A stretch of 64,000 nucleotides of DNA. Origin: Ignavibacteriota bacterium (GTDB lineage Bacteria; Bacteroidota; Ignavibacteria; Tepidaquicellales; Tepidaquicellaceae). Under the pieces are notes generated by a model that made no database searches, was not told the DNA's origin, and was given only the letters and a program-made list of their open reading frames with translations. The position numbers were made by a program, and so were the translations under genes. Shown here piece after piece: positions 2,269 through 63,621 of this stretch. Each line of letters begins with the position of its first letter. Position 1 is the stretch's first letter. The DNA lies in contig JACREY010000021.1 in NCBI GenBank assembly GCA_016218085.1, positions 62,001-126,000 of the forward strand, given 5' to 3'.

Positions 2269-3246
2269 TTAGTTTAAGTGTGAATATTCTTTATTAAGGT
2301 AATTTGAGACATAATCTGTAACGGCATCTGTGATATCAGTAATTTCTTTTTGATAGCCTGCATTTCTGATTTTACTAATATCTGCCTCAGTGAAGCTCTG
2401 GTATTTATTTTTCAGAACTTCTGGCATTTCGAAATACTCGATATTTTCTTTAATCCCGAGAGATTTAAAGATTGGTTTTACAAGACTATTAAAGGAATTA
2501 GCATTGCCAGTACCGATATTGTAAATTCCGTTTATGATTTTATTTTCACCGAAGAACAAAGTCATATCGACAGCATCCTTGACATAAATGAAATCCCTTT
2601 TCTGCTCACCGTCTGCCATACCATTAACTGTTGATTTAAACAAGCGTGTTTTTTTTGATTCTATAATCTGGTCAAAGCTTTTGCTAACTACACTTCGCAT
2701 ATCATTTTTATGATATTCATTCGGGCCGTACACGTTGAAATATTTAAGACCTACGACTTTATCAAGGAAACCGTTATTTTTTATCCAGAGGTCAAAGAGC
2801 TGTTTTGAATAGCCGTAGCCGTTTAAAGGGCGCAGAGTTTCGAGTTGTGATTCATCATCGGAATAGCCATTGCTTCCGTCTCCGTATGTAGCGGCTGAAG
2901 ACGCATATATAAAGCGGATATTGTTATCCACTGCATTTCCACAGAGGAATTTACTGTATTCATAGTTATTATGCAGGAGGTAATTAAAGTCCTGCATAGT
3001 AGTGGAGCTGCAGGCGCCAAGATGATAGATGGTTTCGATTTTATTATCTTTTAGAAAACCTTCATGAACCATAGAGCCGAAATATTCCCTGTCGAAGACA
3101 TCAATGAATTTCAGAGGGATTAAATTTTTGAATTTTTCATTTTCGCCAAAATGGTCGACGACAATTATATCTGATATGCCCATCTGGTTTAATCTCCAGA
3201 TTAGCGCACTACCGATAAATCCCGAACCTCCTGTTACAATAATCAT
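2269..3246 (-). CDS. hldD: ADP-L-glycero-D-manno-heptose 6-epimerase
   Basis: The 325-residue protein is a short-chain dehydrogenase/epimerase: an N-terminal NAD(P)-binding TGGSGFIGSA loop, GACSSTT, YASSAATYGDGS, the catalytic pair in YGYSK (about 145-149), and the YFNVYGPNEYHK segment typical of HldD. It carries out the last step of ADP-heptose synthesis, inverting C6 of ADP-D-glycero-D-manno-heptose for the LPS inner core. Length matches the family (about 310-330). The other pathway genes lie elsewhere in the window (gmhA at 10.0 kb, rfaE2/rfaE1 at 23.7-25.2 kb). The deiminase gene follows after 8 bases. The ATG at 3246 has no clear Shine-Dalgarno sequence but is fixed by the Rossmann motif at the extreme N terminus. 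Confidence 0.93.
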   Translation of the reverse strand: MIIVTGGSGFIGSALIWRLNQMGISDIIVVDHFGENEKFKNLIPLKFIDVFDREYFGSMVHEGFLKDNKIETIYHLGACSSTTMQDFNYLLHNNYEYSKFLCGNAVDNNIRFIYASSAATYGDGSNGYSDDESQLETLRPLNGYGYSKQLFDLWIKNNGFLDKVVGLKYFNVYGPNEYHKNDMRSVVSKSFDQIIESKKTRLFKSTVNGMADGEQKRDFIYVKDAVDMTLFFGENKIINGIYNIGTGNANSFNSLVKPIFKSLGIKENIEYFEMPEVLKNKYQSFTEADISKIRNAGYQKEITDITDAVTDYVSNYLNKEYSHLN

Positions 3247-3252
3247 AATTTA

Positions 3253-3284
3253 GTTATTAAGTTATTATGTTATTAAGTTATTTC
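3253..3284. repeat. Short tandem array, 8-bp period (GTTATTAN)
   Basis: Four consecutive octamers of the form GTTATTAA/GTTATTAT fill the space between the NUDIX stop and the hldD start. It belongs to the 7-8 bp tandem arrays that follow stop codons elsewhere in the window. Confidence 0.7.
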
Positions 3285-3310
3285 GTGTTGCTTCTTTCTA
3301 ATTTTAATTC

Positions 3311-3338
3311 GTTAATTGTTATCTGTTATTTGCTATTT
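3311..3338. repeat. Heptad array running through the NUDIX stop codon
   Basis: Four heptads (GTTAATT, GTTATCT and two variants) lie across the 3' end of the NUDIX gene. The last residues of that protein (QIANNR) are therefore encoded by repeat units, and the array continues past the stop. Confidence 0.6.
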
Positions 3339-3786
3339 GAATCATTGTATTTTCGATTTTACCGCATAAAATATCATTCAATATCATTAAATTTTCTTTC
3401 TGGCTGTACCAGTGAATTTTTTTAAAAGCATCTTCAAAATTCAGCCATTCAAATTCAACATGCTCATCTGACATTATCACCCTTTTATCCGAGACCTCTG
3501 CTGCAAAAACTGGTATCAGGTATATTTTATCGTTATGCGGGGTATAGAATTCGTTTATCTTAGGGTGCACGAAACAGTTAATCATATCAAGTCCTGTTTC
3601 CTCTTTTACTTCCCTAAGTGCTGTTTTAAAAGCTTCCTCATCTTTTTCCATTCTTCCTGTAACAATCTGCCATATACCCGGATACGGTTCTTTCTCATTG
3701 CTTCTTTTCAGAATGAGGTATTTTATTACCCCATTTTCAAACCTGTACACATAGCATTCAATATATTTTGATAATATCTCCGGCAA
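3319..3786 (-). CDS. NUDIX hydrolase
   Basis: This 155-residue protein has a complete Nudix box, G(R)MEKDEE...REVKEETGL (about 43-66), the Mg-binding helix that cleaves nucleoside diphosphates linked to another group. The stretch PGIWQIVTGRMEKDEEA resembles the NudB-like dihydroneopterin-triphosphate pyrophosphatase group of folate synthesis, but the substrate cannot be assigned from this motif alone. It lies 45 bases after polA and is probably cotranscribed with it. Its 3' end is made of heptad repeat units, so the last few residues may be a lineage-specific addition. Confidence 0.85.
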   Translation of the reverse strand: MPEILSKYIECYVYRFENGVIKYLILKRSNEKEPYPGIWQIVTGRMEKDEEAFKTALREVKEETGLDMINCFVHPKINEFYTPHNDKIYLIPVFAAEVSDKRVIMSDEHVEFEWLNFEDAFKKIHWYSQKENLMILNDILCGKIENTMIQIANNR

Positions 3787-6937: not shown

Positions 6938-8545
6938 CTAATCACCTTTCTTCGTTCCGTTGTTCTTTTTTATTTCGGGGGCTTTCTCTTTATTAATCTT
7001 AGGTGCCTGTTCCGTCTTCTGCTTTTGTTCTACTTTCGGCGCCTGTTCTGTTTTTTGCTTATGTTCTACTTTCGGAGCCTGTTCCACTTTCTGTTTCTGT
7101 TCGATACGCGGTTTCTGTTCAACTTTGGGTGTTTCTTTTACAAAACTATTTTTGTTTTCTGATTTAGTCACTACTTTTTCATTGCTCTTGCCGGTATTCT
7201 CAGTCTTTTTTGTAACGGTATTATTTGTTTTGGTATTATTGCTATTTGTATTATATTCAGTGGAGTTATTCTTCTTTCCTGATTCTTTTTTCTGATTATC
7301 CTTAACAACAGTACGGGTTTCGTTTTTGGTAGTATTATTTGAGCTTAACGAATTATTCTGCCTTTTATTTATATTTTCGTCAGACTTTTTCCTGGATTCA
7401 TTTGTTGTGTTCACATTTACAGATTTTACGGTGTTGTTTTCTTTTTTCTTCCGGGTATTCCTTTCCGTATTTTTCAGTTCATTGTCTGCGGACTTATTCT
7501 CATTCTTCAATGTATTTTGTTTTTTAGTTGAAACAGTATTTTCATATTTAGTATTTTTTTCCTTATCCGATGCAGTATTCACATAATTCACTTTTTTCGT
7601 ATCGGTTTTTTTAGTCTGCATTTCGTTTTTAATTACACCGGTATTCTTATTTGTCAGTATATTTCCGTCTTTCTTCAATGTAATTACCGGGTCAGTTATT
7701 TTTATAATTTCATTCTTTTTTGTACCCGTGATGATAGTAGTATTGTTTACTTTTTTTGTGAAATCTTCCTTTTTCACAATTACCCATCCGTTGTTCAATC
7801 TCGGCATTATCGGGGAAATTACTCCGTTATGATGTCTGACTCTCGGCGAAATCGGATGCCACCCAGTATAATGTCCGTGATGTCTCCACATAACCCATCC
7901 GGGAGCCCATCTTCTGCCCGGCGACCAGACCCATCCGTACCTGTGAGAATACCACCACCTGCCGTAATGATAAGTATATCTTCCCCAGTGATAATATGAT
8001 TTCCAGGTCCATCCGTATCGAGTCCAAACCCATCTTCCGTTAGTATAAGGATTCCATCCGACATAAACATATTTTATTTTCGGCACCCAGATTACATTTG
8101 TATAAACATCCACATCGCAATAAGTTGTCTCAGTTGATACATTATTATCGGAGTCGATTTCTTCTTCAGATATTTTAACAAAATCACCGTCTGAGGAAAG
8201 TTTGCTTTCGAATTCGTCAAGACTCGCCTCTTCATCCACGGGGAGAGGATTTTCATTAAGAATTTCCTCTTCTTCATATTTATTATAATTATCAGAAATC
8301 TGTTCATCAGGAGCGACCTGCTCATAGTTTCCGGCATATTTATAATTCAATCCCTGGCTTCGGTTATCAGAAATATCATACAGTAATTCCTCGCTCTGCA
8401 GTTCAGGGTTATTCGTATCCTCAGAAACAATCTGCCTTCCTGCAAAACTGCTGCTTGTTTCTGCTTTTTTCAGAAGGCCGCAGCCGCTGAAGGAAAACAG
8501 AATAAAGGCAACTGCCAGTCCGTTAATCAGAATTCTCGTTTTCAT
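6938..8545 (-). CDS. Lipoprotein with DUF6600-like W/Y/G-rich domain and long repetitive polar tail
   Basis: The start is taken at the ATG at 8545 because TTAAGGAG lies 8 bases before it; an upstream in-frame ATG at 8584 would add a leader with no signal peptide. The 535-residue product has a lipoprotein signal (FILFSFSGCGLL), an acidic segment, then an aromatic domain around 150-245 with YGRWWYSHRYGWVWSPG and WAPGWVMWRHHGHYTGWHP. That spacing of W, G and P matches DUF6600, a family of unknown function in envelope proteins. From about residue 270 to the end the chain is low-complexity, rich in N, K, T and E, and finishes with near-identical 9-18 residue repeats (VEQKQKTEQAPK). The tail may span or bind peptidoglycan or polyanions (inference). 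It is a single-gene unit with its own terminator. Confidence 0.7.
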   Translation of the reverse strand: MKTRILINGLAVAFILFSFSGCGLLKKAETSSSFAGRQIVSEDTNNPELQSEELLYDISDNRSQGLNYKYAGNYEQVAPDEQISDNYNKYEEEEILNENPLPVDEEASLDEFESKLSSDGDFVKISEEEIDSDNNVSTETTYCDVDVYTNVIWVPKIKYVYVGWNPYTNGRWVWTRYGWTWKSYYHWGRYTYHYGRWWYSHRYGWVWSPGRRWAPGWVMWRHHGHYTGWHPISPRVRHHNGVISPIMPRLNNGWVIVKKEDFTKKVNNTTIITGTKKNEIIKITDPVITLKKDGNILTNKNTGVIKNEMQTKKTDTKKVNYVNTASDKEKNTKYENTVSTKKQNTLKNENKSADNELKNTERNTRKKKENNTVKSVNVNTTNESRKKSDENINKRQNNSLSSNNTTKNETRTVVKDNQKKESGKKNNSTEYNTNSNNTKTNNTVTKKTENTGKSNEKVVTKSENKNSFVKETPKVEQKPRIEQKQKVEQAPKVEHKQKTEQAPKVEQKQKTEQAPKINKEKAPEIKKNNGTKKGD

Positions 8546-33144: not shown

Positions 33145-34671
33145 ATGTCAGTTGTCATCACAGGTAAAAATCTTAAAATCGAAGATGTTTACAACGTAGC
33201 AGTAAATGGAGAAAAAGTCGAGCTTCACAAAGACGCCATAGCGAGAATTACAAAATGCCGCGGCTTTTTGGAAAAAAGAGTAGTTGCAAAAGAAATAATG
33301 TACGGCGTAAATACAGGCATCGGAGAGCTTGCAAACGTAGTACTGAATGATGAGCAGGTAAAAGAATTTCAGAAATATTTAATCTATAATCATGCGGCCG
33401 GAATCGGAGAGCCTTTCCCCATCGAAACAGTTCGCGCGGCAATGCTTGCAAGAATAAACGTTCACGCAAACGGATGCTCGGGATGCCGTCCTGTAATCAC
33501 ACAGACTTATGTAGATATGCTTAATAAGGGCGTAACACCGGTTGTCTGCTCAAAAGGCAGTGTAGGCGCTTGCGGTGACCTTTCACCGATGAGCCAGATT
33601 GCTCTATCGCTGATGGGCGAAGGTGAATCTTTTTACAAAGGAAAAAGAATGCCGACTAAAGATGCACAGGCAAAAGCAGGTATTCCGATTCCGGGACTTC
33701 AGGCACGTGATGGGCTTGCGGCAATTAACGGCTCGAACGTAATCAACGGGATGGCCTGCATACAGATTTATGAGATTGAAAGATTTTTAAAACAGGCGGA
33801 AATAGCATGCGCAATGACACTCGAAGCGCTGATGGCAAATATGAAACCCTATGACACTCGTCTGCATTCACTTCGCGGATTCCGCGGTGCGGTAACATCT
33901 GCAGAAAATATAAAAAGAATTATAGACGGTTCCGACCTGCTCGGAAAAGTAAAAGTCAAAGTTCAGGATGCATACTCTATGCGCTCATCTCCTCAGGTTA
34001 TCGGCACAGCCCGTGACCAGCTAAGATGGACAAAGGAGCAGGTAGAAACAGAACTCAACGGTGTCGGTGATAATCCGATATTCCTCCCCGATGATGAAGT
34101 GGTGCTGACAGGCGCAAACTTCCAGGGCTCGCCAATCTGTGTACCGCTGGATACTCTCGGAGCTACGGTTGCTATGGTGTGCGTACTTTCGGAAAGAAGA
34201 CTCAACAGGTTATTACATCCTGCATTAAGCGTAGGACTTCCTGCATTCCTTACAAAAGGAGCAGGAATGTTTTCGGGGCATATGCTAAGCCAGTACACAG
34301 CAGATATGATGATAGTGGAGCAGAAGATTTTATCCGCTCCTGCTTTCATTCAATCAATCCCCGCGGCGGCAGACCAGGAAGACTTTGTAAGCATGGGAAT
34401 GAACACAGCGCTCAAGACAAGACAGATTTTAGAAAACGCATACGGCATACTCGGAATAGAATTTATTTCGGCGGCACAGGCAATTGACTTCCGTGAATAC
34501 AACGTAGGAAAAGGAACAAAAACCGCGCATACGGCAGTCAGAAAAGTTGTAGAGCACCTCGAAGTTGACAGACCTCTCTTCACCGACCACAACAATATGA
34601 TGGCTTGCGTAAAGAGACGCGATATACTGCATGCGGTGGAAGACGAAATCGGAGAGTTGAAAACGTACTAA
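33145..34671 (+). CDS. hutH: Histidine ammonia-lyase-like MIO enzyme with Ala-Cys-Gly in place of Ala-Ser-Gly
   Basis: The 508-residue protein aligns with bacterial histidine ammonia-lyase without gaps at the N terminus. Tyr53 lies in YGVNTGIG, Asn82-His83 in YNHAAGIG, and the MIO triad is at 142-144, the same numbers as in the Pseudomonas enzyme. The triad reads GSVGACGDLSPM, so the serine that becomes dehydroalanine is Cys143. Other active-site parts are present: YSMRSSPQV (Arg280) and QEDFVSM (Glu412), the latter having Phe where HAL usually has His. NGSNVING replaces the usual NGTQ. His83 favours histidine over phenylalanine or tyrosine, but the substrate is uncertain. No hutU, hutI or hutG is nearby. 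It is a single gene with its own promoter and terminator. Confidence 0.85.
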   Translation: MSVVITGKNLKIEDVYNVAVNGEKVELHKDAIARITKCRGFLEKRVVAKEIMYGVNTGIGELANVVLNDEQVKEFQKYLIYNHAAGIGEPFPIETVRAAMLARINVHANGCSGCRPVITQTYVDMLNKGVTPVVCSKGSVGACGDLSPMSQIALSLMGEGESFYKGKRMPTKDAQAKAGIPIPGLQARDGLAAINGSNVINGMACIQIYEIERFLKQAEIACAMTLEALMANMKPYDTRLHSLRGFRGAVTSAENIKRIIDGSDLLGKVKVKVQDAYSMRSSPQVIGTARDQLRWTKEQVETELNGVGDNPIFLPDDEVVLTGANFQGSPICVPLDTLGATVAMVCVLSERRLNRLLHPALSVGLPAFLTKGAGMFSGHMLSQYTADMMIVEQKILSAPAFIQSIPAAADQEDFVSMGMNTALKTRQILENAYGILGIEFISAAQAIDFREYNVGKGTKTAHTAVRKVVEHLEVDRPLFTDHNNMMACVKRRDILHAVEDEIGELKTY

Positions 34672-34677
34672 TGAAAC

Positions 34678-34754
34678 GTGAATAGTCAATCGTCAATCGT
34701 GAATTGCGTCGCGTAAAATGTAAATAGTAAATTGTAAAAAGTAAAAAGTAAGAG
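34678..34754 (+). repeat. Heptad tandem array after hutH
   Basis: Eleven consecutive 7-base units run from 6 bases past the stop. The first are GTGAATA and two GTCAATC units; the later ones are GTAAAAT to GTAAAAA variants. All begin with G and keep exact 7-base phase for 77 bases. Confidence 0.75.
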
Positions 34755-34765
34755 CTTTAATATAG

Positions 34766-34803
34766 AATCGTTCCGGTGCAAAAGTACCGGAACGATTTTT
34801 TTT
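34766..34803. terminator. Terminator between hutH and the Ycf48-like gene
   Basis: AATCGTTCCGGT pairs perfectly (12 bp) with ACCGGAACGATT around 8 bases and is followed by eight T on the plus strand. It closes hutH. Confidence 0.9.
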
Positions 34804-34839
34804 ATATTATCGAAATACTTTTATCCATATACGCTTTCG

Positions 34840-36063
34840 CTATTTTATCATCAACATTTTTTTTACTTCGGTGAAGTATGGCGTTTCGAGTTTATAGAAA
34901 TACACACCGGACGAAATGCCTGAAAACGGGATTTCATAGCTACCCGCTGTCAGCTGTTCGCTTACAAGCGATGCAACTTCCCTGCCGAGCATATCATACA
35001 CTTTCAGGGTGACGAAAGAGTTTTTAGGTAAATCGAATTTTATTTTTGTTTCAGGATTAAAAGGATTCGGAAAATTCTGATAGAGATTATAAAAATTCGG
35101 TACGGTTTTACCCGTATTATTTAAAAATGAAATCTGTCCTCCGCCATTTGTAGTTTTGAGAATCGTGCCGGAGTTTCCGCAGATATATCCTGTATTATCA
35201 TTCAGATAGAAAAATGTGGAATTAAGATTTTGAGTTGTCGGAGAACTCTGAAAGCCCCAGTTTACGCCGTTATTAGTGGATTTTAAAATAGTGCCGTTAT
35301 TTCCGCAGGCATAAATGCGTGAAGTATTATTAACTGAATATTCGACAGCCCTAAGTCTGCTCCCTGTGCCTGTAACCGGATTAAACCAGTTGGTTCCGTT
35401 ATTAGTGCTTCTTAACACAAGTCCGTTATCACCTACTGTTATATCTGCACTTCCGAATAGCGGAACGCCATAAAGGTTATTCGAGGTACCGCTGTTTACC
35501 GGTACCCAGTTTGTTCCGAGGCTGAATCCTTTTAATATTGTACCGCTGTCACCAACAGCATAATAAGAAAAAGTAGCACAGACGGCATTTAATCTTCGAG
35601 TAACAGGACTTGGGATTATGCTCCAGTTCAGACCTGTATTTGTTCCTTTTAAAATCGTGCCATTGTCGCCGACAATTATGAAATTAAAATCGCTGAAATC
35701 CCTGAGTGTTGCAGTTGTAGGCGAAGGCACTGAAAACCAGTTTGCACCATCATTAGTAGTTTTCAGAATAGTCCCGCCGGCTCCGATTGCAAAAACGGGA
35801 CCGTCTGCGATTTCAATAAATACAATAGAATACAGATTATTAGCGGTTCCGCTGTTTTGCTGAATCCAGTTAGTGCCGCCGTTAGATGTATATAAAATTA
35901 CACCGTTATCACCGCAAGCCCATGCAATATCTTCATCACCGTGGCTGAAATTTATACTGTTCAGATTTACGGTTGTACCGCTGTTTTGAAGAATCCAGCC
36001 GGCGGTAGTGAAATTAGAGGAGATAAGTATATTAATTAATAAAATATAAATGTATTTTTTCAT
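34840..36063 (-). CDS. Secreted Ycf48-like repeat protein with T9SS sorting tail
   Basis: The 407-residue protein has a signal peptide (1-~21) followed by six to seven repeats of about 40 residues with the pattern (A/I)(V/C)GDNG(T/L)ILK(S/T)TN.G.NW, as in Ycf48/BNR-like beta propellers (about 25-310). It ends in a type IX sorting domain (about 325-407, YQNFPNPFNPETKIKFDLP). Such propellers bind proteins or glycans on the cell surface; the ligand is unknown. The sorting tail is close to that of the carboxypeptidase next door, at DNA level too, which points to duplication or conversion. It is the downstream neighbour of the M14 gene on the same strand, separated by two terminator-shaped repeats. 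Confidence 0.85.
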   Translation of the reverse strand: MKKYIYILLINILISSNFTTAGWILQNSGTTVNLNSINFSHGDEDIAWACGDNGVILYTSNGGTNWIQQNSGTANNLYSIVFIEIADGPVFAIGAGGTILKTTNDGANWFSVPSPTTATLRDFSDFNFIIVGDNGTILKGTNTGLNWSIIPSPVTRRLNAVCATFSYYAVGDSGTILKGFSLGTNWVPVNSGTSNNLYGVPLFGSADITVGDNGLVLRSTNNGTNWFNPVTGTGSRLRAVEYSVNNTSRIYACGNNGTILKSTNNGVNWGFQSSPTTQNLNSTFFYLNDNTGYICGNSGTILKTTNGGGQISFLNNTGKTVPNFYNLYQNFPNPFNPETKIKFDLPKNSFVTLKVYDMLGREVASLVSEQLTAGSYEIPFSGISSGVYFYKLETPYFTEVKKMLMIK

Positions 36064-36170
36064 AATTTGGTATTATTTCACGGTTATGCTATTTGATTAT
36101 AAAACAATAACGGAAATAAAAAATTCCAAGTTGATACTCTATAGCAGAAAATAATTTCAGGGAAAAAAAA

Positions 36171-36200
36171 ACGTTCCCACGCAAGAGCGTGGGAACGAGG
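36171..36200 (-). repeat. Terminator-shaped palindrome CGTTCCCACGC...GCGTGGGAACG, copy 1
   Basis: A perfect 11-bp stem with the loop AAGA follows a run of A, which reads as a T run on the minus strand. It belongs to the same family as the tRNA-Ala terminator at 9424-9449. Confidence 0.85.
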
Positions 36201-36223
36201 GTTAAGGAATATAAGCTAAAAAA

Positions 36224-36274
36224 ACGTTCCCACGCTGTCCGCCACAGCGGATTTTCAAGAGCATGAGAACGAGG
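36224..36274 (-). repeat. Terminator-shaped palindrome with a second palindrome nested in its loop, copy 2
   Basis: The left arm CGTTCCCACGC and the decayed right arm GCATGAGAACGAGG enclose a second inverted repeat with arms TCCGC/GCGGA. Seven A precede it, giving a T run on the minus strand just after the carboxypeptidase stop. It probably serves as that gene's terminator. Confidence 0.75.
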
Positions 36275-36282
36275 AAGTAAAT

Positions 36283-40972: not shown

Positions 40973-40997
40973 AAAATATCTTTTTAAGTCAAAAAAA

Positions 40998-41088
40998 ATC
41001 TAAATCCGAATTTCTAAATCCTAAACAATATCTAATAATCAAATCTTAATAAAACAGATTGAAATTTGAGATTTAGAATTTATTATTT
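40998..41088. repeat. Paired heptad arrays after pepP, in opposite orientation
   Basis: From 40998 to about 41046, seven 7-base units follow the ATCTAAA/TCCTAAA pattern. At 41061-41088 four units of the complementary form (on minus: AAATTCT, AAATCTC and similar) run the other way. The pair lies in the 146-base gap between the pepP stop and the ATPase start. No other feature was found in that gap. Confidence 0.6.
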
Positions 41089-41118
41089 GTTTAAAATTTT
41101 GATATTTGAATTTTGTAT

Positions 41119-42444
41119 TTAAGAGCTCATCATATTTTCTAAATCTGCAATATCTTTCGCTAAGGATGCAGTCAGTATTTCATTTCCGTTTTTAGTTACC
41201 AATACATCATCTTCAATCCTGATGCCGATTCCGCGGTACTTTACCGGAGAATCGCTGTCTTTTGAAATATATAAACCGGGTTCTACGGTTATTATGTTCC
41301 CTGCTTTTAATATATCATAATCGAATTTTTCATCATAGCCGAATTTCACGGCATCGTGAGTATCAAGTCCGAGATGATGTCCGACTCCGTGCATATAATA
41401 CTTCGTAACTTCTTCTTTCTTTTTAATGATTTTCAATGCTATTAGCCCCTTAGCGAGAGCATCGCGGGTGTATTGCTTCAGATAAGATAATTTTACTCCG
41501 GGTTTTATTTTTTTAATAACGTCTTTCTGAACTTTCAATACGAGCTGATAAATTTCTTTTTGTTCTTTTGTAAATACACCGCTGACGGGAACCGTGCGGG
41601 TGATATCGGAATTATACCCGTTATATTCGCAGCCGGAATCAATCAGAACCAAATCGCCTTCTTTCAATATGTCCTGATTTGTTTCATAATGCAGAGTGCA
41701 GGCATTATTTCCCGAGGCAACGATTGTGTTGAAAGCCGTATCCATAGCGCCGTATGCCTTGTAGTTATATTCAAGCACGGACTGAACCTGGTATTCGTAA
41801 AGCCCGCCGCCAATCTGCGATATTGCATCCTGAAAAGCGGTGACGCAGATTCCCGCTGAGCGTTTCATTTGCGATATTTCATAACCGGTTTTTACAAACC
41901 TCAGTTTTCCGATTAAGTAATTTATGTCAATCAGATGAACATTCGGAGTAAGAGTGAATAGTCTTTCGTAGAAATCCACCATCAGTCTTTTCATTTCGCC
42001 TGTGAGAGCGTACAGTTCGGGAATGTTGATGTAAAGCTTGTTGATTTGCGGAGTAAGGTTCGAGGTGAGGAAATTCATTATTTCGGAATTCACCTGTCCG
42101 TATTCGATGCCGAGCTCTTTATTCACGTTTTCGAATCCGAGGCGTTTGCCGGTCCACACTTCGCGTGATTTATCTTTCTGCTGAACGAATAAAATTTCTT
42201 TTACGTTTTTGAATTTATTTTTACCGGCGGATACCTTTATTCCGCCGGGAGCGAGGAGCAGAGCCGCATTTGGCTCTTCGAATCCCGTGAGATAAAAGAA
42301 ATTTCTGTTTTGTTTTAAGTGAAAATCATAATCGTATGATTTGTGCTTGAATGTAGCTCCGAAAACCAATGCAAGCGAATGCTTGTCAATTTGTTTAAGC
42401 AGTTCCTGCCTGCGGGATTTATGGAAAGCGAGTTGGAGTGTCAT
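41119..42444 (-). CDS. pepP: Xaa-Pro aminopeptidase (M24B)
   Basis: The 441-residue protein has the AMP_N domain (about 10-145) and a pita-bread catalytic domain. Metal ligands are seen in LIDSGCEYNGYNSDITRTVPVSG (two Asp), HGVGHHLGLDTHD (His), TVEPGLY (Glu) and GIRIEDDVLVT (Glu), with the second HxxH segment intact. It cleaves N-terminal residues before proline, in the cytoplasm. It is followed by a heptad array. The HEPN-like gene starts upstream on the same strand. Confidence 0.93.
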   Translation of the reverse strand: MTLQLAFHKSRRQELLKQIDKHSLALVFGATFKHKSYDYDFHLKQNRNFFYLTGFEEPNAALLLAPGGIKVSAGKNKFKNVKEILFVQQKDKSREVWTGKRLGFENVNKELGIEYGQVNSEIMNFLTSNLTPQINKLYINIPELYALTGEMKRLMVDFYERLFTLTPNVHLIDINYLIGKLRFVKTGYEISQMKRSAGICVTAFQDAISQIGGGLYEYQVQSVLEYNYKAYGAMDTAFNTIVASGNNACTLHYETNQDILKEGDLVLIDSGCEYNGYNSDITRTVPVSGVFTKEQKEIYQLVLKVQKDVIKKIKPGVKLSYLKQYTRDALAKGLIALKIIKKKEEVTKYYMHGVGHHLGLDTHDAVKFGYDEKFDYDILKAGNIITVEPGLYISKDSDSPVKYRGIGIRIEDDVLVTKNGNEILTASLAKDIADLENMMSS

Positions 42445-44554: not shown

Positions 44555-44738
44555 CTTAAAGATTATTTAATATTAAAAAAATACTAACTTTTTAAAAATA
44601 TAATAAATAAGTTCCAAAATCAACAAATATAATTATAATAGCAATATCACACATATTCTAAGATTCGGAATACCGTCTTTTATGGTACTTTTAGGGGGAT
44701 AAATCTCTTTTTTTGTATATTTATTAACTTAATATTTA

Positions 44739-44912
44739 GAAATGCGCACTTTTTCGGAATATTTTTGCACTTTTAGAAAAGAAATGTTCACATTTTCGGA
44801 ATTATTTTGCACTTTTAGAAAAGAAATGTGCACATTTTCGGAATATTTTTGCACTTTTAGAAAAGAAATGTTCACATTTTCGGAATTATTTTAGACTTTT
44901 AGAAAAGAAATT
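44739..44912. repeat. 42-bp tandem array with 21-bp half-units and 84-bp alternation
   Basis: Four full 42-base units occupy 44739-44906, then a partial one. Each unit has two related 21-base halves, one with TTTTCGGAAT and one with GCACTTTTAGAAAA. Units 1 and 3 share AATATTTTT, and units 2 and 4 share AATTATTTT. A diverged single copy of the motif (TTCGGAAT ... ACTTTTAG) lies upstream near 44663-44694. The rest of 44555-44738 is AT-rich with nothing else visible. Confidence 0.9.
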
Positions 44913-44917
44913 TGAAC

Positions 44918-45451
44918 TTAAAAATTATATTTTATTCCGCCGTAGAAACCGAAGTAGTCAATGACAGCGGCTCCGCCTTCATTTGCAACGAAGTGCGGAT
45001 GATATTTTGCTTTGATTAATACATCAAAATCCTTATTAATTTTAATTGCTGTACCGATTCCCGGGCTTGCGCCAAACCAGACACTTTTGTTTTTATAATC
45101 AACAAAATAAAATCCGAGTCCTGCATCAATAAAAGGGCTTATATTACCATCGTGCAAATACAATCGTGGTCCGGCAGTAAGTTCGATAAAACTTTTTGTA
45201 TAAGGCGGGTTTTCGGGATAATAAATATATTCCATTCTTCTGGATAAATTCACATTAAATTCAGCAAAGAAAGCCCAGGGTTTTTTGAAATATTGAAATT
45301 CAGCTCCGATATTCCATCCGGTTTTGAATTCATCAATTTCATTATTGGGGAAAAATACTCCGGAATTTAAAGCAATAGAATATTTTTTGCTTTGCGGGAA
45401 AGAATTGGAAAAAATAATTAAAGCTGTAAGGATAAAAATTATTTTTTTCAT
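44918..45451 (-). CDS. Outer-membrane beta-barrel protein (OmpW/PorT-like)
   Basis: The 177-residue protein has a signal peptide (1-~20) and then eight or so alternating amphipathic strands (KYSIALNSGVFFP, WNIGAEFQYF, AFFAEFNVNL, FIELTAGPRLYL, PFIDAGLGFYFV, SPGIGTAIKI, DVLIKAKYHP), ending in YNF, the terminal aromatic residue of outer-membrane barrels. Size and pattern fit small eight-strand barrels. Function unknown. It ends beside the 42-bp array. Confidence 0.75.
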   Translation of the reverse strand: MKKIIFILTALIIFSNSFPQSKKYSIALNSGVFFPNNEIDEFKTGWNIGAEFQYFKKPWAFFAEFNVNLSRRMEYIYYPENPPYTKSFIELTAGPRLYLHDGNISPFIDAGLGFYFVDYKNKSVWFGASPGIGTAIKINKDFDVLIKAKYHPHFVANEGGAAVIDYFGFYGGIKYNF

Positions 45452-45583: not shown

Positions 45584-45660
45584 AATTCATAATTCGGAAT
45601 TCATAATTTGCGTTCTTTGCATCCCGATGTTCTTTATCGGGACAGAATTCAGAATTGGGA
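45584..45660. repeat. Convergent heptad arrays flanking a CCCGAT...ATCGGG hairpin, after purF
   Basis: AATTCAT/AATTCGG heptads run at 45584-45611, and a short opposite-orientation set (CAGAATT repeated) runs at 45642-45656. Between them is a palindrome with arms TCCCGAT/ATCGGGA. The block begins 3 bases after the purF stop at 45663. Confidence 0.6.
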
Positions 45661-45662
45661 AA

Positions 45663-47216
45663 CTAATCTTCGAAATTTTCTTTTTCTTTGTGCTCGATAT
45701 CGTAAACGGGAATCGGGTATTTGCAGTTAAAGCAGGCGGTGCAGTAATCCGTTTTCGCGCTTGTTTTCGGAACGGCATCGAGAAGCTGTTCGAGCGAGAG
45801 ATATCCGAGTGAATCAACTCCGAGCTCTTTTCTGATTTCCTCGATATCACCATTATGCTGGTTTGCGATAAGCTCTTCCTTCGAGGGAAAGTCCATACCG
45901 TAATAGCACGGCGACACAATCGGTGGTGAAGTTATACGCAGATGAATTTCTTTCGGTCCTGCTTTTTTGATTAAGTCCACAAGCATCTTCAGTGTATTAC
46001 CGCGGACGATAGAGTCATCAACGATTACAACTTTGCGGTTCGCCAGTACGCCTTTTACTATATTGAATTTTACTTTTATTTTCAGCTTGCGGTTATCCTG
46101 TCCGGGCTGGATGAATGTCCTACCGACATAGTGACTGCGGATTAATCCTATTTCGTGTTTGAAATTTCGGTTTGTTTTAATAGCCTCGTTGAAATATCCG
46201 AGCGTAGCAGTGTTGGAAGAGTCGGGCACGTTTATAATAATCACTTTCTTTTCGTCGTCGTCTCCCGGGTCGTCCTTATCAGGCGGAGGCTGCTCGATGG
46301 AAAGGTTGCGTCCGATATTTCTTCTTACCTTATCAACTTTTTCTTCGAATATCTGGCTGTCGGGACGTGAGAAATAAATATATTCGAATATGCAGTGTTT
46401 ATATTTTTCTGCTGTCTTGAAAATTATGGATTTAGGTTTTTGTGTCTTAAGGACTTCTTTATCTATTACAATCATTTCGCCCGGCTCCACGTCACGGATA
46501 TAATCGGCGTTAAGAATATCGAGAGCGGTTGTTTCCGATGCGAAGATATAGCTGTCTTCGAGTTTTCCCATTACAAAAGGTCTGACGCCATAGGGGTCGC
46601 GGACTGCAATTAATTTATCATCGGTGAGGATACAGACGGAATAAGCACCTTCGACCTGAGAGAAGGCATCGAGCAGTTTATCTTCTATAGTTTTCTCCTT
46701 GCTCTTTGCAATCAGATGAAGAATAATTTCGCTGTCTGTTGTAGTCTGAAAAATTGTACCTTCTTCCTGAAGTTTATTCCTGAGATAGCTTGTATTTGTG
46801 AGGTTTCCGTTATGAGACAGAGCAAGATTGCCGTCTTTGAAATTCACTTTGAAGGGTTGAATATTATTCCTCCTGCCGGATGCTCCGGTAGTGGAATACC
46901 TGTTATGTCCGATTGCAGAATTTCCTTTCAGGTCTTCCGTTAAAATGAGTTCATCGGAAAAAACATCAAGCACGAGTCCCGAGCCTTTATGAACATTAAA
47001 ATGATGTCTCTTTTTATCTTCGAGATATTCGCACGCCACTATTCCCGCCGCTTCCTGTCCTCTATGCTGTAGTGCGTGAAGTCCGTAGTATGTAAGAATA
47101 GCTGATTCGGGGTGGTTATAAATCCCGAATACTCCACAGTTGGAGTGAATTGATTTAGTATAAAAATCTACGAAGTGTTTTTGCCTCCGAAGTAATCTTT
47201 CTTTATCCCTTTTCAT
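45663..47216 (-). CDS. purF: Amidophosphoribosyltransferase
   Basis: The 517-residue protein has a 26-residue N-terminal propeptide, then Cys27 in CGVFGIYNH, the glutaminase nucleophile after cleavage. YYGLHALQHRGQEAAGI follows, and the PRTase site VIVDDSIVRGNTLKMLV. The iron-sulfur cysteines of the Bacillus-type enzyme appear in SPCYYGMDF and DYCTACFNCK. It catalyses the first step of purine synthesis (PRPP plus glutamine to phosphoribosylamine). A short acidic insertion, PPPDKDDPGDDDEKK (about 300-315), sits before the usual VPDS segment. The PHP gene precedes it by 8 bases. Confidence 0.95.
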   Translation of the reverse strand: MKRDKERLLRRQKHFVDFYTKSIHSNCGVFGIYNHPESAILTYYGLHALQHRGQEAAGIVACEYLEDKKRHHFNVHKGSGLVLDVFSDELILTEDLKGNSAIGHNRYSTTGASGRRNNIQPFKVNFKDGNLALSHNGNLTNTSYLRNKLQEEGTIFQTTTDSEIILHLIAKSKEKTIEDKLLDAFSQVEGAYSVCILTDDKLIAVRDPYGVRPFVMGKLEDSYIFASETTALDILNADYIRDVEPGEMIVIDKEVLKTQKPKSIIFKTAEKYKHCIFEYIYFSRPDSQIFEEKVDKVRRNIGRNLSIEQPPPDKDDPGDDDEKKVIIINVPDSSNTATLGYFNEAIKTNRNFKHEIGLIRSHYVGRTFIQPGQDNRKLKIKVKFNIVKGVLANRKVVIVDDSIVRGNTLKMLVDLIKKAGPKEIHLRITSPPIVSPCYYGMDFPSKEELIANQHNGDIEEIRKELGVDSLGYLSLEQLLDAVPKTSAKTDYCTACFNCKYPIPVYDIEHKEKENFED

Positions 47217-60675: not shown

Positions 60676-61317
60676 ATGGATAAAGTTTTATTCAGCGTAA
60701 GGCTGAACGAATTCTGCAAAACCGTTTCACCGACTCAGGTGGATTTTGCAGCAAAGCTCGGGATGAAGCCGCAGACTCTGCAGAAATACCTTAAGGGACA
60801 CAGGCTTCCCCTACCTGACATACTTCACAGGATAAGCAGTTTAGGATGCAACATTAACTGGCTGCTGAACGGTGAAGGAGAGATGCTTAAAAAGCCCGAC
60901 AAACCGGGCGGAAAGACAAAGCCGATTCCCGTTCTAGCCACGGTTGAATGCGGCACACCCGTTTACAACCAGATAAGCGAGGAGGGGGTAAAAATGATGG
61001 AGCTGACGGACACAAATCATTTTACGAATCCGTTTGTTGCTGTAGCACGGGGGGATTCGATGAGGCCGTACATAAATCCCGGAGACTTCCTGCTATGCTC
61101 GGATGACTCGCAGAAAATCAAAGACGGGAGGGCAGTGGTTGTGAATTTCAAAACAATTCCCGAAACTTATTCAAGCAATGCAAAGCTGATAAAATTTCTG
61201 GATGATGACAGGATAATGCTGTACTCAGTGAATACAAAATTTCCTCCGACTGTACACAAGAAGAGCGAGATTTACAAGATATACAAGGTGGTGCGGATTA
61301 TACGTGACGTTAAATAG
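60676..61317 (+). CDS. XRE/S24-family (LexA/CI-like) transcriptional repressor
   Basis: The 213-residue protein has an N-terminal helix-turn-helix (about 15-65, QVDFAAKLGMKPQTLQKYLK) and a C-terminal S24 peptidase domain (about 85-213). The catalytic serine is in ARGDSMRPYINPGD (Ser128), and the lysine is most likely Lys170 in AKLIKF, by position. The self-cleavage site reads VECGTP, that is Cys92-Gly93 in place of the LexA Ala-Gly; UmuD uses Cys-Gly. It could therefore respond to DNA damage through RecA, but no SOS box or partner gene identifies its role. Not a prophage: no phage genes are near. Confidence 0.85.
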   Translation: MDKVLFSVRLNEFCKTVSPTQVDFAAKLGMKPQTLQKYLKGHRLPLPDILHRISSLGCNINWLLNGEGEMLKKPDKPGGKTKPIPVLATVECGTPVYNQISEEGVKMMELTDTNHFTNPFVAVARGDSMRPYINPGDFLLCSDDSQKIKDGRAVVVNFKTIPETYSSNAKLIKFLDDDRIMLYSVNTKFPPTVHKKSEIYKIYKVVRIIRDVK

Positions 61318-61358
61318 AATTATGAATTCTGAATGAAGAATGATGAATGAAGAGCTTA
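61317..61358 (+). repeat. Heptad tandem array starting in the repressor stop codon
   Basis: Six 7-base units (GAATTAT, GAATTCT and four more GA-starting units) begin at the last base of the TAG stop at 61315-61317. Confidence 0.75.
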
Positions 61359-61434
61359 AAAGAAATTAATTTGGTAACAAAGAAGCAAAATTTTCGTATA
61401 AATAAATAATTAACAAATTTTCAAATAATATATT

Positions 61435-63462
61435 ATGATAAAGAAAAATTTATTTCTATTTGCAATTCTTTTTGTTTTATCGGGGATGACATACTCACAG
61501 GAAAAATATTTTATGGAAGAGAATATAGATAAATCAGTAAACCCGGGAGATGATTTTTTCCTTTATGCAAACGGGAATTTTATTAAGCGCAACCCGATAC
61601 CTGCATCGGAATCCGTTTACGGTATATTCAACCTGATTACAGATGATGTATATGAATACCTGAAAAAAATCTGCATAGATGACATGAATGACAACACTGC
61701 TGTAAAGGGAAGCAACACGCAAAAAATCGGCGACTTCTTTTTCAGCGGGATGGATTCTGCCGGAATTGAAAAGCAGGGAGCAGGGCCTCTTAAGAAATGG
61801 ATGGAAAAAATTGACAGGATAAAAGATGTTAAAGACGTTTTAAAAGTTGCGGCAGAGCTGCATACGGCAGGGGTCGGACCGCTTTATATTTTTTATACAA
61901 GCCAGGATGACATGCAGAGCAGTGTGTATAAAGCTTTTCTCTACCAGGGGGGAATCGGCCTGCCAAACAGAGACTACTACTTCAAAGACGATGAAAGGAC
62001 AAAAAACATTCGTGCGAAATATATAAAGCATATAGAAAACCTTTTATTGTTAATCGGATACAAGCCGGATGAAGCAAAAAATGCGGCTAAAGAAATTATG
62101 AAACTGGAAACACAGCTTGCAAAATCATCGAGAAAGCTGGAAGAGCTGCGCGACTCCTATGCGAATTACAACAGGAGGACATTTAAGGAGTTATCGGAAA
62201 TCACGCCTTCCATCAACTGGAGGGAAGTTTTTAATATTTACGGAGTAAAAAAGACTGACACCGTAATTGTGTGCCAGCCGGAATTTTTTGCAGAGCTGGA
62301 AAAGGTCCTGAATGATTACGATATAGATGTATTAAAAGATTACCTGAAATGGAATTTAATCGATGAAACGGCAGGGCTTTTGAGCAATAAATTCAGTGAT
62401 GAGCATTTTGATTTTCACGGAAAAGTGCTTTCAGGCACGACGGAGCAAAGGCCGAGATTCAAAAGGGTTCTGGATAACACTAACGACCTGCTGGGTGAGA
62501 TACTCGGAATGGAATACGTTCGCATTTACTTTTCACCTGAAGACAAGGCAAGGACAAGGCAAATGGTAGATAATGTATTCGACGCTTTTGCAGAGAGAGT
62601 AAGGAATCTGGACTGGATGAGCGAGGAAACAAAGCAGAAAGCACTGTTAAAGCTGGGCACGGTAGACAAGAAAATCGGATACCCCGATAAATGGAAAGAC
62701 TATTCAACACTTGAAATTTCACGCAATTCATATTTAACAAATATATTCAACGCAAGGAACTGGGAATTCAAAAAGAACATTGCAAAGATGGACAAGCCCG
62801 TGGATAAGACCGAATGGCACATGAATCCGCAGACCTGCAATGCTTATTACAGTTCATCCAATAATGAAATCGTATTACCGGTAGCAATAATGACCGTTCC
62901 CGGCAAAAAAATGAGTGAACTCGATGATGCATTTCTTTACGGATACGTTGGAGCGAGTACAATTGGTCACGAACTTACACATGGATTCGATGATGAAGGA
63001 AGGAATTACGATGCAGATGGAAATTTAAAAGGTTGGTGGACAGCGGAAGATTCGGCTAAGTTTGTTTCGAAAGCGCAGAAGCTTGTAGAGCAATTCGATA
63101 ATTTTGTAGTTCTTGAGAATATGCACGTAAACGGTAAAGCGACGCTTGGCGAGAACATTGCCGACCTGGCAGGGCTCGTACTGGGATTTGAAGCTTTGAA
63201 AAAAACGAAGGAATGGCAGGAGAAAAAAGTGATAGGCGGATTCACTGTCGAGCAGAGATATTTTCTAGGTTATGCTTTTTCGTGGGCAGTATATTACAGG
63301 GATGAGCTGCTTGCACGTAGAATTATGACAGATGTACACTCGCCGCCGTTCCTAAGAATAAACGGACCGATGTCGAATTTAAAGGAATTTTACGAAGCAT
63401 TCGGAGTGAAAGAGGGGGATAAATTATACAGACAAGAAAGTGAAAGGGTGAAAATCTGGTAA
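61435..63462 (+). CDS. M13-family (neprilysin/PepO-like) zinc endopeptidase, exported
   Basis: The 675-residue protein has a signal peptide (1-~21), the M13 N domain (DKSVNPGDDFFLYANGNFIK) and the catalytic domain with IGHELTHGFDDEGRNYDADG (HExxH near 515) and NGKATLGENIADLAGL (third zinc ligand Glu). NAYYSSSNNEIVLPVAIM and the final ...VKIW complete the family pattern. Length matches (about 670-700). It cleaves small peptides in the periplasm or outside. Single-gene unit; a heptad array and tRNA follow. Confidence 0.93.
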   Translation: MIKKNLFLFAILFVLSGMTYSQEKYFMEENIDKSVNPGDDFFLYANGNFIKRNPIPASESVYGIFNLITDDVYEYLKKICIDDMNDNTAVKGSNTQKIGDFFFSGMDSAGIEKQGAGPLKKWMEKIDRIKDVKDVLKVAAELHTAGVGPLYIFYTSQDDMQSSVYKAFLYQGGIGLPNRDYYFKDDERTKNIRAKYIKHIENLLLLIGYKPDEAKNAAKEIMKLETQLAKSSRKLEELRDSYANYNRRTFKELSEITPSINWREVFNIYGVKKTDTVIVCQPEFFAELEKVLNDYDIDVLKDYLKWNLIDETAGLLSNKFSDEHFDFHGKVLSGTTEQRPRFKRVLDNTNDLLGEILGMEYVRIYFSPEDKARTRQMVDNVFDAFAERVRNLDWMSEETKQKALLKLGTVDKKIGYPDKWKDYSTLEISRNSYLTNIFNARNWEFKKNIAKMDKPVDKTEWHMNPQTCNAYYSSSNNEIVLPVAIMTVPGKKMSELDDAFLYGYVGASTIGHELTHGFDDEGRNYDADGNLKGWWTAEDSAKFVSKAQKLVEQFDNFVVLENMHVNGKATLGENIADLAGLVLGFEALKKTKEWQEKKVIGGFTVEQRYFLGYAFSWAVYYRDELLARRIMTDVHSPPFLRINGPMSNLKEFYEAFGVKEGDKLYRQESERVKIW

Positions 63463-63469
63463 AAGAGCA

Positions 63470-63563
63470 GAATTCAGAAGTTATGAAGTTAAGGAGTTAA
63501 GTATAAAACATTTTGATGTACACTCTATCTAAACTTCTTAACTTCTTTAACTTCTTAACTCCT
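63470..63563. repeat. Convergent short tandem arrays after the M13 gene
   Basis: Left array 63470-63501 has GAATTCA, GAAGTTAT and GAAGTTAAG units. Right array 63532-63563 has AACTTCTT and AACTTCTTT units, which are the complement, so the two can fold back on each other. It starts 7 bases past the M13 stop. Confidence 0.7.
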
Positions 63564-63621
63564 AAAAAGAAGCATTGAAAAAAAATTTATAATTGCTTAT
63601 TTTGTATTTCTTTAAAAAGTT

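Follow-up and report, generated by a model that had tools for sequence, protein, structure and literature searches.

The window analysed here, a stretch of 64,000 nucleotides of an Ignavibacteriota genome (G000:C14:62001-126000; genome of 3.31 Mb in 22 contigs), carries short degenerate tandem repeats directly at the stop codons of several genes, which raises the question of why such arrays lie at gene ends and how they arose there. The initial annotation listed six intervals beside genes named as NUDIX, hutH, pepP, purF, S24 and M13. Nine window genes beside the reported arrays were checked against Pfam, by which the flanking genes were confirmed and these names were found to be right (NUDIX, HutH-type, aminopeptidase P, PurF-like, S24 and M13). 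Genes were called with a purpose-written codon-score caller, so that gene starts are approximate, and the orientation of arrays was assigned from G versus C counts. The features concerned are as follows.

2269-3246, minus strand: epimerase gene
3248-3282, minus strand: 8-mer array, AACTTAAT on the coding strand, 1 nt before the epimerase start codon
3299-3339, minus strand: degenerate array of 7-mers over the NUDIX stop codon at 3319; units of AAATAGC/AAATAAC type (coding strand)
3319-3750, minus strand: NUDIX gene (Pfam)
33145-34671, plus strand: aromatic amino acid lyase/HutH-type gene (Pfam)
34672-34751, plus strand: 7-mer array, GTSAATM and then GTAAATN units, directly 3' of the HutH-type stop
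34750-34755, plus strand: AAGAGC on the 3' end of the HutH-type array
34766-34803, plus strand: separate intrinsic terminator downstream of the HutH-type array, AATCGTTCCGGT hairpin and T run, from sequence and fold
40973-41118, minus strand: aminopeptidase P 3' gap with a weak AT-rich imperfect hairpin (z -1.8); heptads at P = 0.059
41119-42444, minus strand: aminopeptidase P gene (Pfam)
45584-45660, minus strand: AATTATG/AATTCTG heptads downstream of the PurF-like gene, with a TCCCGAT...ATCGGGA palindrome and GATGCAAAGAACGCA between them
45663-47216, minus strand: PurF-like gene (Pfam)
60676-61317, plus strand: S24 gene (Pfam)
61317-61353, plus strand: GAATNNN 7-mer array, beginning on the last base of the S24 stop codon
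61350-61355, plus strand: AAGAGC on the 3' end of the S24 array
61435-63462, plus strand: M13 gene (Pfam)
63463-63468, plus strand: AAGAGC abutting the M13 stop codon
63477-63501, plus strand: 8-mer array GAAGTTAT/GAAGTTAA, left arm of the M13 3' hairpin
63528-63566, minus strand: facing 8-mer array, TTAACTTC on the plus strand, right arm of the M13 3' hairpin

For each listed interval, the best segment of period 7 to 9 was compared with 2000 dinucleotide-shuffled versions of its own stretch. Clear tandem arrays were found in four of the six, with P = 0.0005 for 3247-3340, 34672-34839 and 61315-61434 and P = 0.0015 for 63463-63620. The array at 45584-45660 is interrupted, its heptads being broken by the palindrome (45585-45665, P = 0.014), and the heptad periodicity claimed at 40998-41088 was not significant (40973-41121, P = 0.059). 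The interval 3253-3338 comprises two arrays, an 8-mer one beside the start of the next gene and a 7-mer one over the NUDIX stop; the G-containing strand of the former (3248-3282) reads away from the epimerase gene. Units of the NUDIX array type recur at L024:9826-9879, and the composite of the PurF-like gap has a near-identical counterpart at L009:7166-7255. The HutH-type protein is 80-90% identical to proteins of metagenome assemblies labelled Ignavibacteria or Bacteroidetes, and its convergent neighbour (34840-36063, minus strand) encodes a YCF48-like protein with a Por secretion C-terminal sorting domain. Two further repeats were noted in the window: about four copies of a 42/84-bp tandem repeat, AGAAATGTGCACATTTTCGGAATATTTTTGCACTTTTAGAAA, between genes at 44738-44933, which is unlike the heptads in kind, and a 36-bp tandem repeat of about 2.7 copies at 7005-7102, within the coding sequence 6938-8545 (minus strand).

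For a wider view, the window and forty 20-kb stretches were taken as a genome sample (864 kb in total, about one quarter of the genome), in which 470 intergenic gaps measured 20 bp or more; relatives of the same genus (G001) and of other genera (G002 and G005) were also sampled. Score thresholds for arrays were set by the author of the analysis, and at the cut-off used in the genome-wide scan (14 or more) intergenic DNA held 32 arrays of period 7 (0.6 in shuffles), 12 of period 8 and 10 of period 9, with 0-0.6 in shuffles over these periods, and just 0-1 array for each of the periods 4-6 and 10-13. The placement analysis of the same 864 kb comprised 44, 12 and 17 arrays of periods 7, 8 and 9, respectively. 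Coding DNA contained 12 arrays in 782 kb. Arrays were present in 56 of the 470 gaps, so the "many genes" of the initial annotation correspond to about 12% of gaps. The peak at period 7 was also seen in relatives and in Nostoc plasmids, and arrays were present in most sampled genera of the family. The proposed heptad phasing therefore stands as a peak and not as an exact seven; because periods 8 and 9 occur too, the class is one of 7-to-9-base repeats, with 7 the commonest. Arrays of 9-mers, e.g., AATCTTATA and TAGAGTGTA, are common, and several genera of the family have them (L170 in G001; L180 and L203 in G002).

Gene 3' ends, which had been suggested as the favoured site, were borne out as such. 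When each array was placed at random in its own gap (1000 simulations), 39 arrays were found within 20 nt of a stop in the G000 sample against 22.2 expected (sd 3.1), and none of the simulations reached this number. The result was replicated in another genus (G002, 29 against 15.1 expected; 0/1000 simulations as high). There was no such excess at starts, with 9 arrays against 12.6 expected in G000 and 10 against 11.4 in G002. The share of bases lying in arrays was 14.3% in convergent, 3.2% in unidirectional and 1.1% in divergent gaps. Array distances bunch about the stop, roughly from -20 to +9. Of the 40 arrays no farther than 30 nt from a stop, 22 become periodic 1-20 nt inside the ORF, which means that the stop codon often belongs to the array. 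Arrays that bring their own stop and truncate the gene could make at most a minor contribution to this pattern, since the ends of orthologous proteins are conserved, differing by few residues in most pairs. The arrays thus follow the last codons or replace only these.

The G-containing, C-poor strand of the arrays (C 5%, G 21%) reads outward at both gene ends, which is new here. The outward strand had more G than C in 27 of 33 stop-side arrays (27:6) and in all eight start-side arrays (8:0) of G000, and in 22/26 and 8/8, respectively, in G002. In the smaller samples of other relatives the counts were 13:0 at stops and 2:3 at starts, and on Nostoc plasmids, whose arrays are too few to judge orientation (11, nearly all of period 7), the stop-side G/C pattern was reversed in 3/3. 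A plain bias of strand composition was ruled out, as array-free gaps show no G/C skew (-0.017 after stops, 0.005 before starts). Neighbouring arrays within a gap were facing in 18 cases and back-to-back in none, the others being on the same strand (G000, G002 and G005), and two facing arrays usually come from different unit families. Their complementarity was no higher than that of random pairs (9.1 versus 8.4 and 9.15 versus 9.0); hairpin formation is therefore not the general reason for the arrangement, and it was dropped as a general function. The orientation does have consequences for translation. All three reading frames meet a stop codon within 45 nt in 24/36 stop-side arrays, compared with 8/36 if these are reversed (G002, 16/27 versus 8/27), and start-side arrays carry 0.67 start codons compared with 1.44 if reversed (G002, 0 versus 2.4). 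As the orientation found adds stops in all frames after genes and avoids extra starts before them, selection on translation could set array polarity in this genome. The same cannot explain polarity in Xanthomonas, where the GGGAATC unit gives neither stop nor start codon in either orientation.

The claim of a different unit at each locus is true only locally; genome-wide the units form recurring families, which differ between genomes. The AGTAGWY family of G000 is represented in the 864 kb by 19 arrays of 3-5 boxes, never more than 5, with linker dinucleotides TT, AT, TC or AC (W, then Y) in 61/63 cases, and their flanks have no evident similarity except for an adjoining AAGAGC. Further multi-copy families exist in G000, and the main families contain no GGG run. 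Some arrays are long and homogeneous, e.g., CACAAAGT x17, and no gradient of unit homogeneity was seen along arrays, against a mode of growth in which units would be older near the gene and younger farther away. No intergenic hexamer of G000 is more over-represented than AAGAGC (129 against 23.2 expected). It lies within 25 nt of the array 3' end in 22/68 arrays, at the 5' end in 7 and on the opposite strand in 2, compared with 1.9% of random intergenic 31-nt windows; among the cases within about 40 nt beyond the 3' end, it begins at positions -4 to +1 relative to this end in 17/23. It also divides other modules (CCGCCACGGCGG palindromes and CACTAAGG octamers), and it is on a single strand in 16/19 gaps that have two or more copies. 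The hexamer is enriched in G005, of another genus (18 against 3.4), and not in G002 (6 against 4.6) though arrays are abundant there, so the junction is lineage-specific, unlike the arrays themselves. A 1-kb convergent gap, G000:C3:147539-148606 (L014:7539-8606), is a mosaic of modules, namely AGTAG arrays, CACTAAGG octamers and CACAAAGT x17, in which the AAGAGC between modules is always on the same strand. At 36160-36275 of the window, a CGTTCCCACGC...GTGGGAACG palindrome has AAGAGC as its loop, and nearby a second copy has an insert of CCGCCACAGCGG followed by AAGAGC.

The arrays turn over rapidly between relatives. In 89 same-gene comparisons with six relatives (reciprocal-best pairs, some window genes being counted against more than one relative), arrays were present in both genes in 3, in only one in 21 and in neither in 65. 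At the hutH stop, the GTSAATM units of G000 are replaced in a 90%-identical orthologue by AATCTAG units, which take in the stop codon, and other orthologues have none. At the M13 stop, 3/5 orthologues carry arrays, with periods of 8, of 8 plus 7 and of 9 plus 8 and mostly different units; in the same-genus orthologue, 8-mers of a similar kind also face each other. Where an orthologue has no array, a simple terminator is retained or the gene runs directly into the next one. The S24 array is absent from the same-genus orthologue in G001 and from G005, and in the S24-M13 gap the flanks that enclose the array and AAGAGC in G000, immediately 3' of the stop codon, have matching counterparts in G001 that are joined. 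This clean case of insertion is one gap.

Given where the arrays were found to lie and which way they point, their families, the AAGAGC junction and the turnover seen among relatives, the reading we favour, at about an even chance, is that the arrays are dispersed, polarised modules of 7-9-mers inserted in gene tails and filtered by selection. We infer that copies move as modules by insertion and that selection, not the inserting machinery, sets their orientation. A module would be a run of C-poor 7-9-mers, in G000 often ending in AAGAGC and in some cases preceded by a second AAGAGC-like copy. Such modules may insert into non-coding gene tails and could later change as units are gained, lost or mutated. 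Insertions would survive where they are least harmful, between stop codon and terminator and in convergent gaps, and would rarely survive in divergent promoter regions. Neither a transposase nor any other enzyme could be tied to the modules. Transposition by RAYT/Y1 enzymes was rejected, as there are no arrays near the Y1 genes, which carry other palindromes nearby. These Y1 transposase genes, L191 (G000:C21:395425-395769), L189 and L192, have CCCCGAAGGGGT-type palindromes in a RAYT-REP-like setting separate from the arrays.

The origin by local slippage put forward in the initial annotation is a rival that we consider unlikely. Short gene-tail sequences would expand in place, 7-9 nt being favoured by the polymerase footprint (an idea of 7-nt polymerase contact is attributed to Mrazek 2007 in the passages of PMC4679880 and PMC4692102 that cite it), and selection would clear coding and promoter DNA. 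The period peak at 7 in G000, relatives and Nostoc plasmids, the rapid turnover and long homogeneous arrays such as the 17-unit one, which look like local expansion, are all consistent with it. However, slippage predicts neither unit families common to many loci, with the same fixed and variable positions and no more than five boxes, nor an exact AAGAGC end, and local slippage is for this reason not supported; moreover, homogeneity shows no gradient, and slippage alone does not yield a G strand that reads outward. Slippage explains changes in length, but not the common families or the junction. A further rival is the healing of breaks, in which a break in an intergenic gap would be resected toward the coding boundary, the 3' ends would receive C-poor G-strand repeats and the ends would be rejoined. 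Arrays made in this way would begin at the ends of genes and point toward one another, as fused telomeres do, in agreement with the sharp array start at the ORF end, the outward G strand at stops and starts in two genera, the 18 facing against 0 back-to-back pairs and their usually different families. It is nevertheless very unlikely, as it predicts neither dispersed identical families nor AAGAGC junctions, in the S24-M13 comparison no flanking DNA has obviously been lost at the insertion, and polarity is 2 versus 3 on the start side in the smaller samples and 0 versus 3 on the stop side of Nostoc plasmids. We also know of no bacterial enzyme for such polar 3'-end extension, which counts against it. 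A dedicated DNA process of this lineage that builds or inserts AAGAGC-capped arrays of C-poor 7-9-mers with a direction of their own, so that they grow away from coding sequence at either end of a gene, like healed chromosome ends, is likewise quite improbable.

A function in RNA, in which the arrays would end transcripts or shield the ends of mRNA, either as hairpins of the 3' UTR or as repeats bound by protein, is also improbable. The facing arrays 3' of M13 fold into a hairpin of -26.4 kcal/mol (z -3.4), the similar facing 8-mers of the same-genus orthologue and the limited number of AGTAG boxes (3-5) would fit such a function, and transcripts in Xanthomonas start or end more often at G4-forming than at control repeats (Rehm 2015, PMC4692102). 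An RNA role may therefore apply at single loci. As a general role, however, the RNA 3'-end formation proposed in the initial annotation was not supported: the hutH array has its separate terminator, facing arrays are complementary only at the level of random pairs, the region of the NUDIX array does not fold stably, array presence is not conserved between orthologues, array-free ones among them keeping simple terminators, and Rfam gave only tRNAs, with no match at array sites. Finally, an artefact of assembly or gene calling could be suspected from the 22-contig assembly and the home-made caller, but it is hardly credible, because the arrays are interrupted, varied among loci, inside long contigs and recurrent in independent assemblies of other genera, and the flanking genes were confirmed by Pfam.

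Insertion of modules thus remains the preferred reading, and this lineage offers a handle on the origin of such repeats in its several families within one genome and its precise AAGAGC end motif. Further handles are the polarity rule in two genera and a gap with an array in one species that is absent in a same-genus relative. Should the modules be mobile, 3' UTRs would be reshaped by a class of dispersed repeat that is very short; if the polarity comes from the inserting machinery, a DNA-processing activity not known so far would be implied.

Intrinsic terminators consist of a GC-rich hairpin followed by a T run, and the arrays differ from them in having an AT-rich hairpin in one case and little or no structure in another. 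REP elements are palindromic and are moved by RAYT (Y1) transposases. The arrays resemble them in being short, dispersed and intergenic, and Y1 genes are present in G000; unlike REP elements, however, they are tandem, not palindromic and not beside Y1 genes. In the literature searched, no report of such arrays in Ignavibacteria was found.

Several tandem systems are closer. In Beggiatoaceae, and in a few Bacteroidetes, TAACTGA direct repeats are intergenic and lie mostly just upstream of start codons (MacGregor 2015, PMC4679880). Unlike that single unit at starts, the G000 arrays are mostly at stops and have many units, and TAACTGA is not among the listed G000 families. Geobacter metallireducens has multicopy sites of four or five tandem hepta- or octanucleotides; the putative regulator-binding classes, mostly pairs on opposite strands, were proposed as sites of global regulators (in the sections of PMC2700814 on these sites). 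The dispersed families of 3-5 tandem 7-8-mers are alike, whereas the units differ and those sections state no placement at stop codons. Heptamer tandem repeats in bacteria have been noted at least since the LSSR survey of Mrazek 2007, with no accepted origin or role in the accounts that cite it. The arrays share with cyanobacterial STRR and with LSSR repeats, as these are cited in PMC4679880 and PMC4692102, the form of degenerate, intergenic, lineage-specific heptanucleotides, and the suggested resemblance to cyanobacterial heptamers was borne out, the comparison with STRR being one of form. No description of a stop-side bias or of an AAGAGC junction was found for STRR or LSSR in those citing passages.

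The closest system is that of the GGGAATC and GGGGA(C/T)T heptamers of Xanthomonas and Nostoc, which are stop-adjacent and strand-specific, some of them overlapping the stop (Rehm 2015, PMC4692102). On the sense strand they are found up to 50 bp from stops, and on the antisense strand ahead of starts; they are rare between divergent ORFs, often have few units and vary between related species (PMC4692102). The G000 arrays are likewise degenerate intergenic 7-mers, sense at stops, antisense at starts and rare in divergent gaps. On the other hand, they show no excess at starts, their units are AT-rich (G 0.21, C 0.05) and mostly unable to form G-quadruplexes, several families occur per genome, periods 8 and 9 are found too and AAGAGC is frequent at the end. 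Relative to the known heptamers, the AT-rich units, the several families, the periods of 7-9 and the AAGAGC junction are new.
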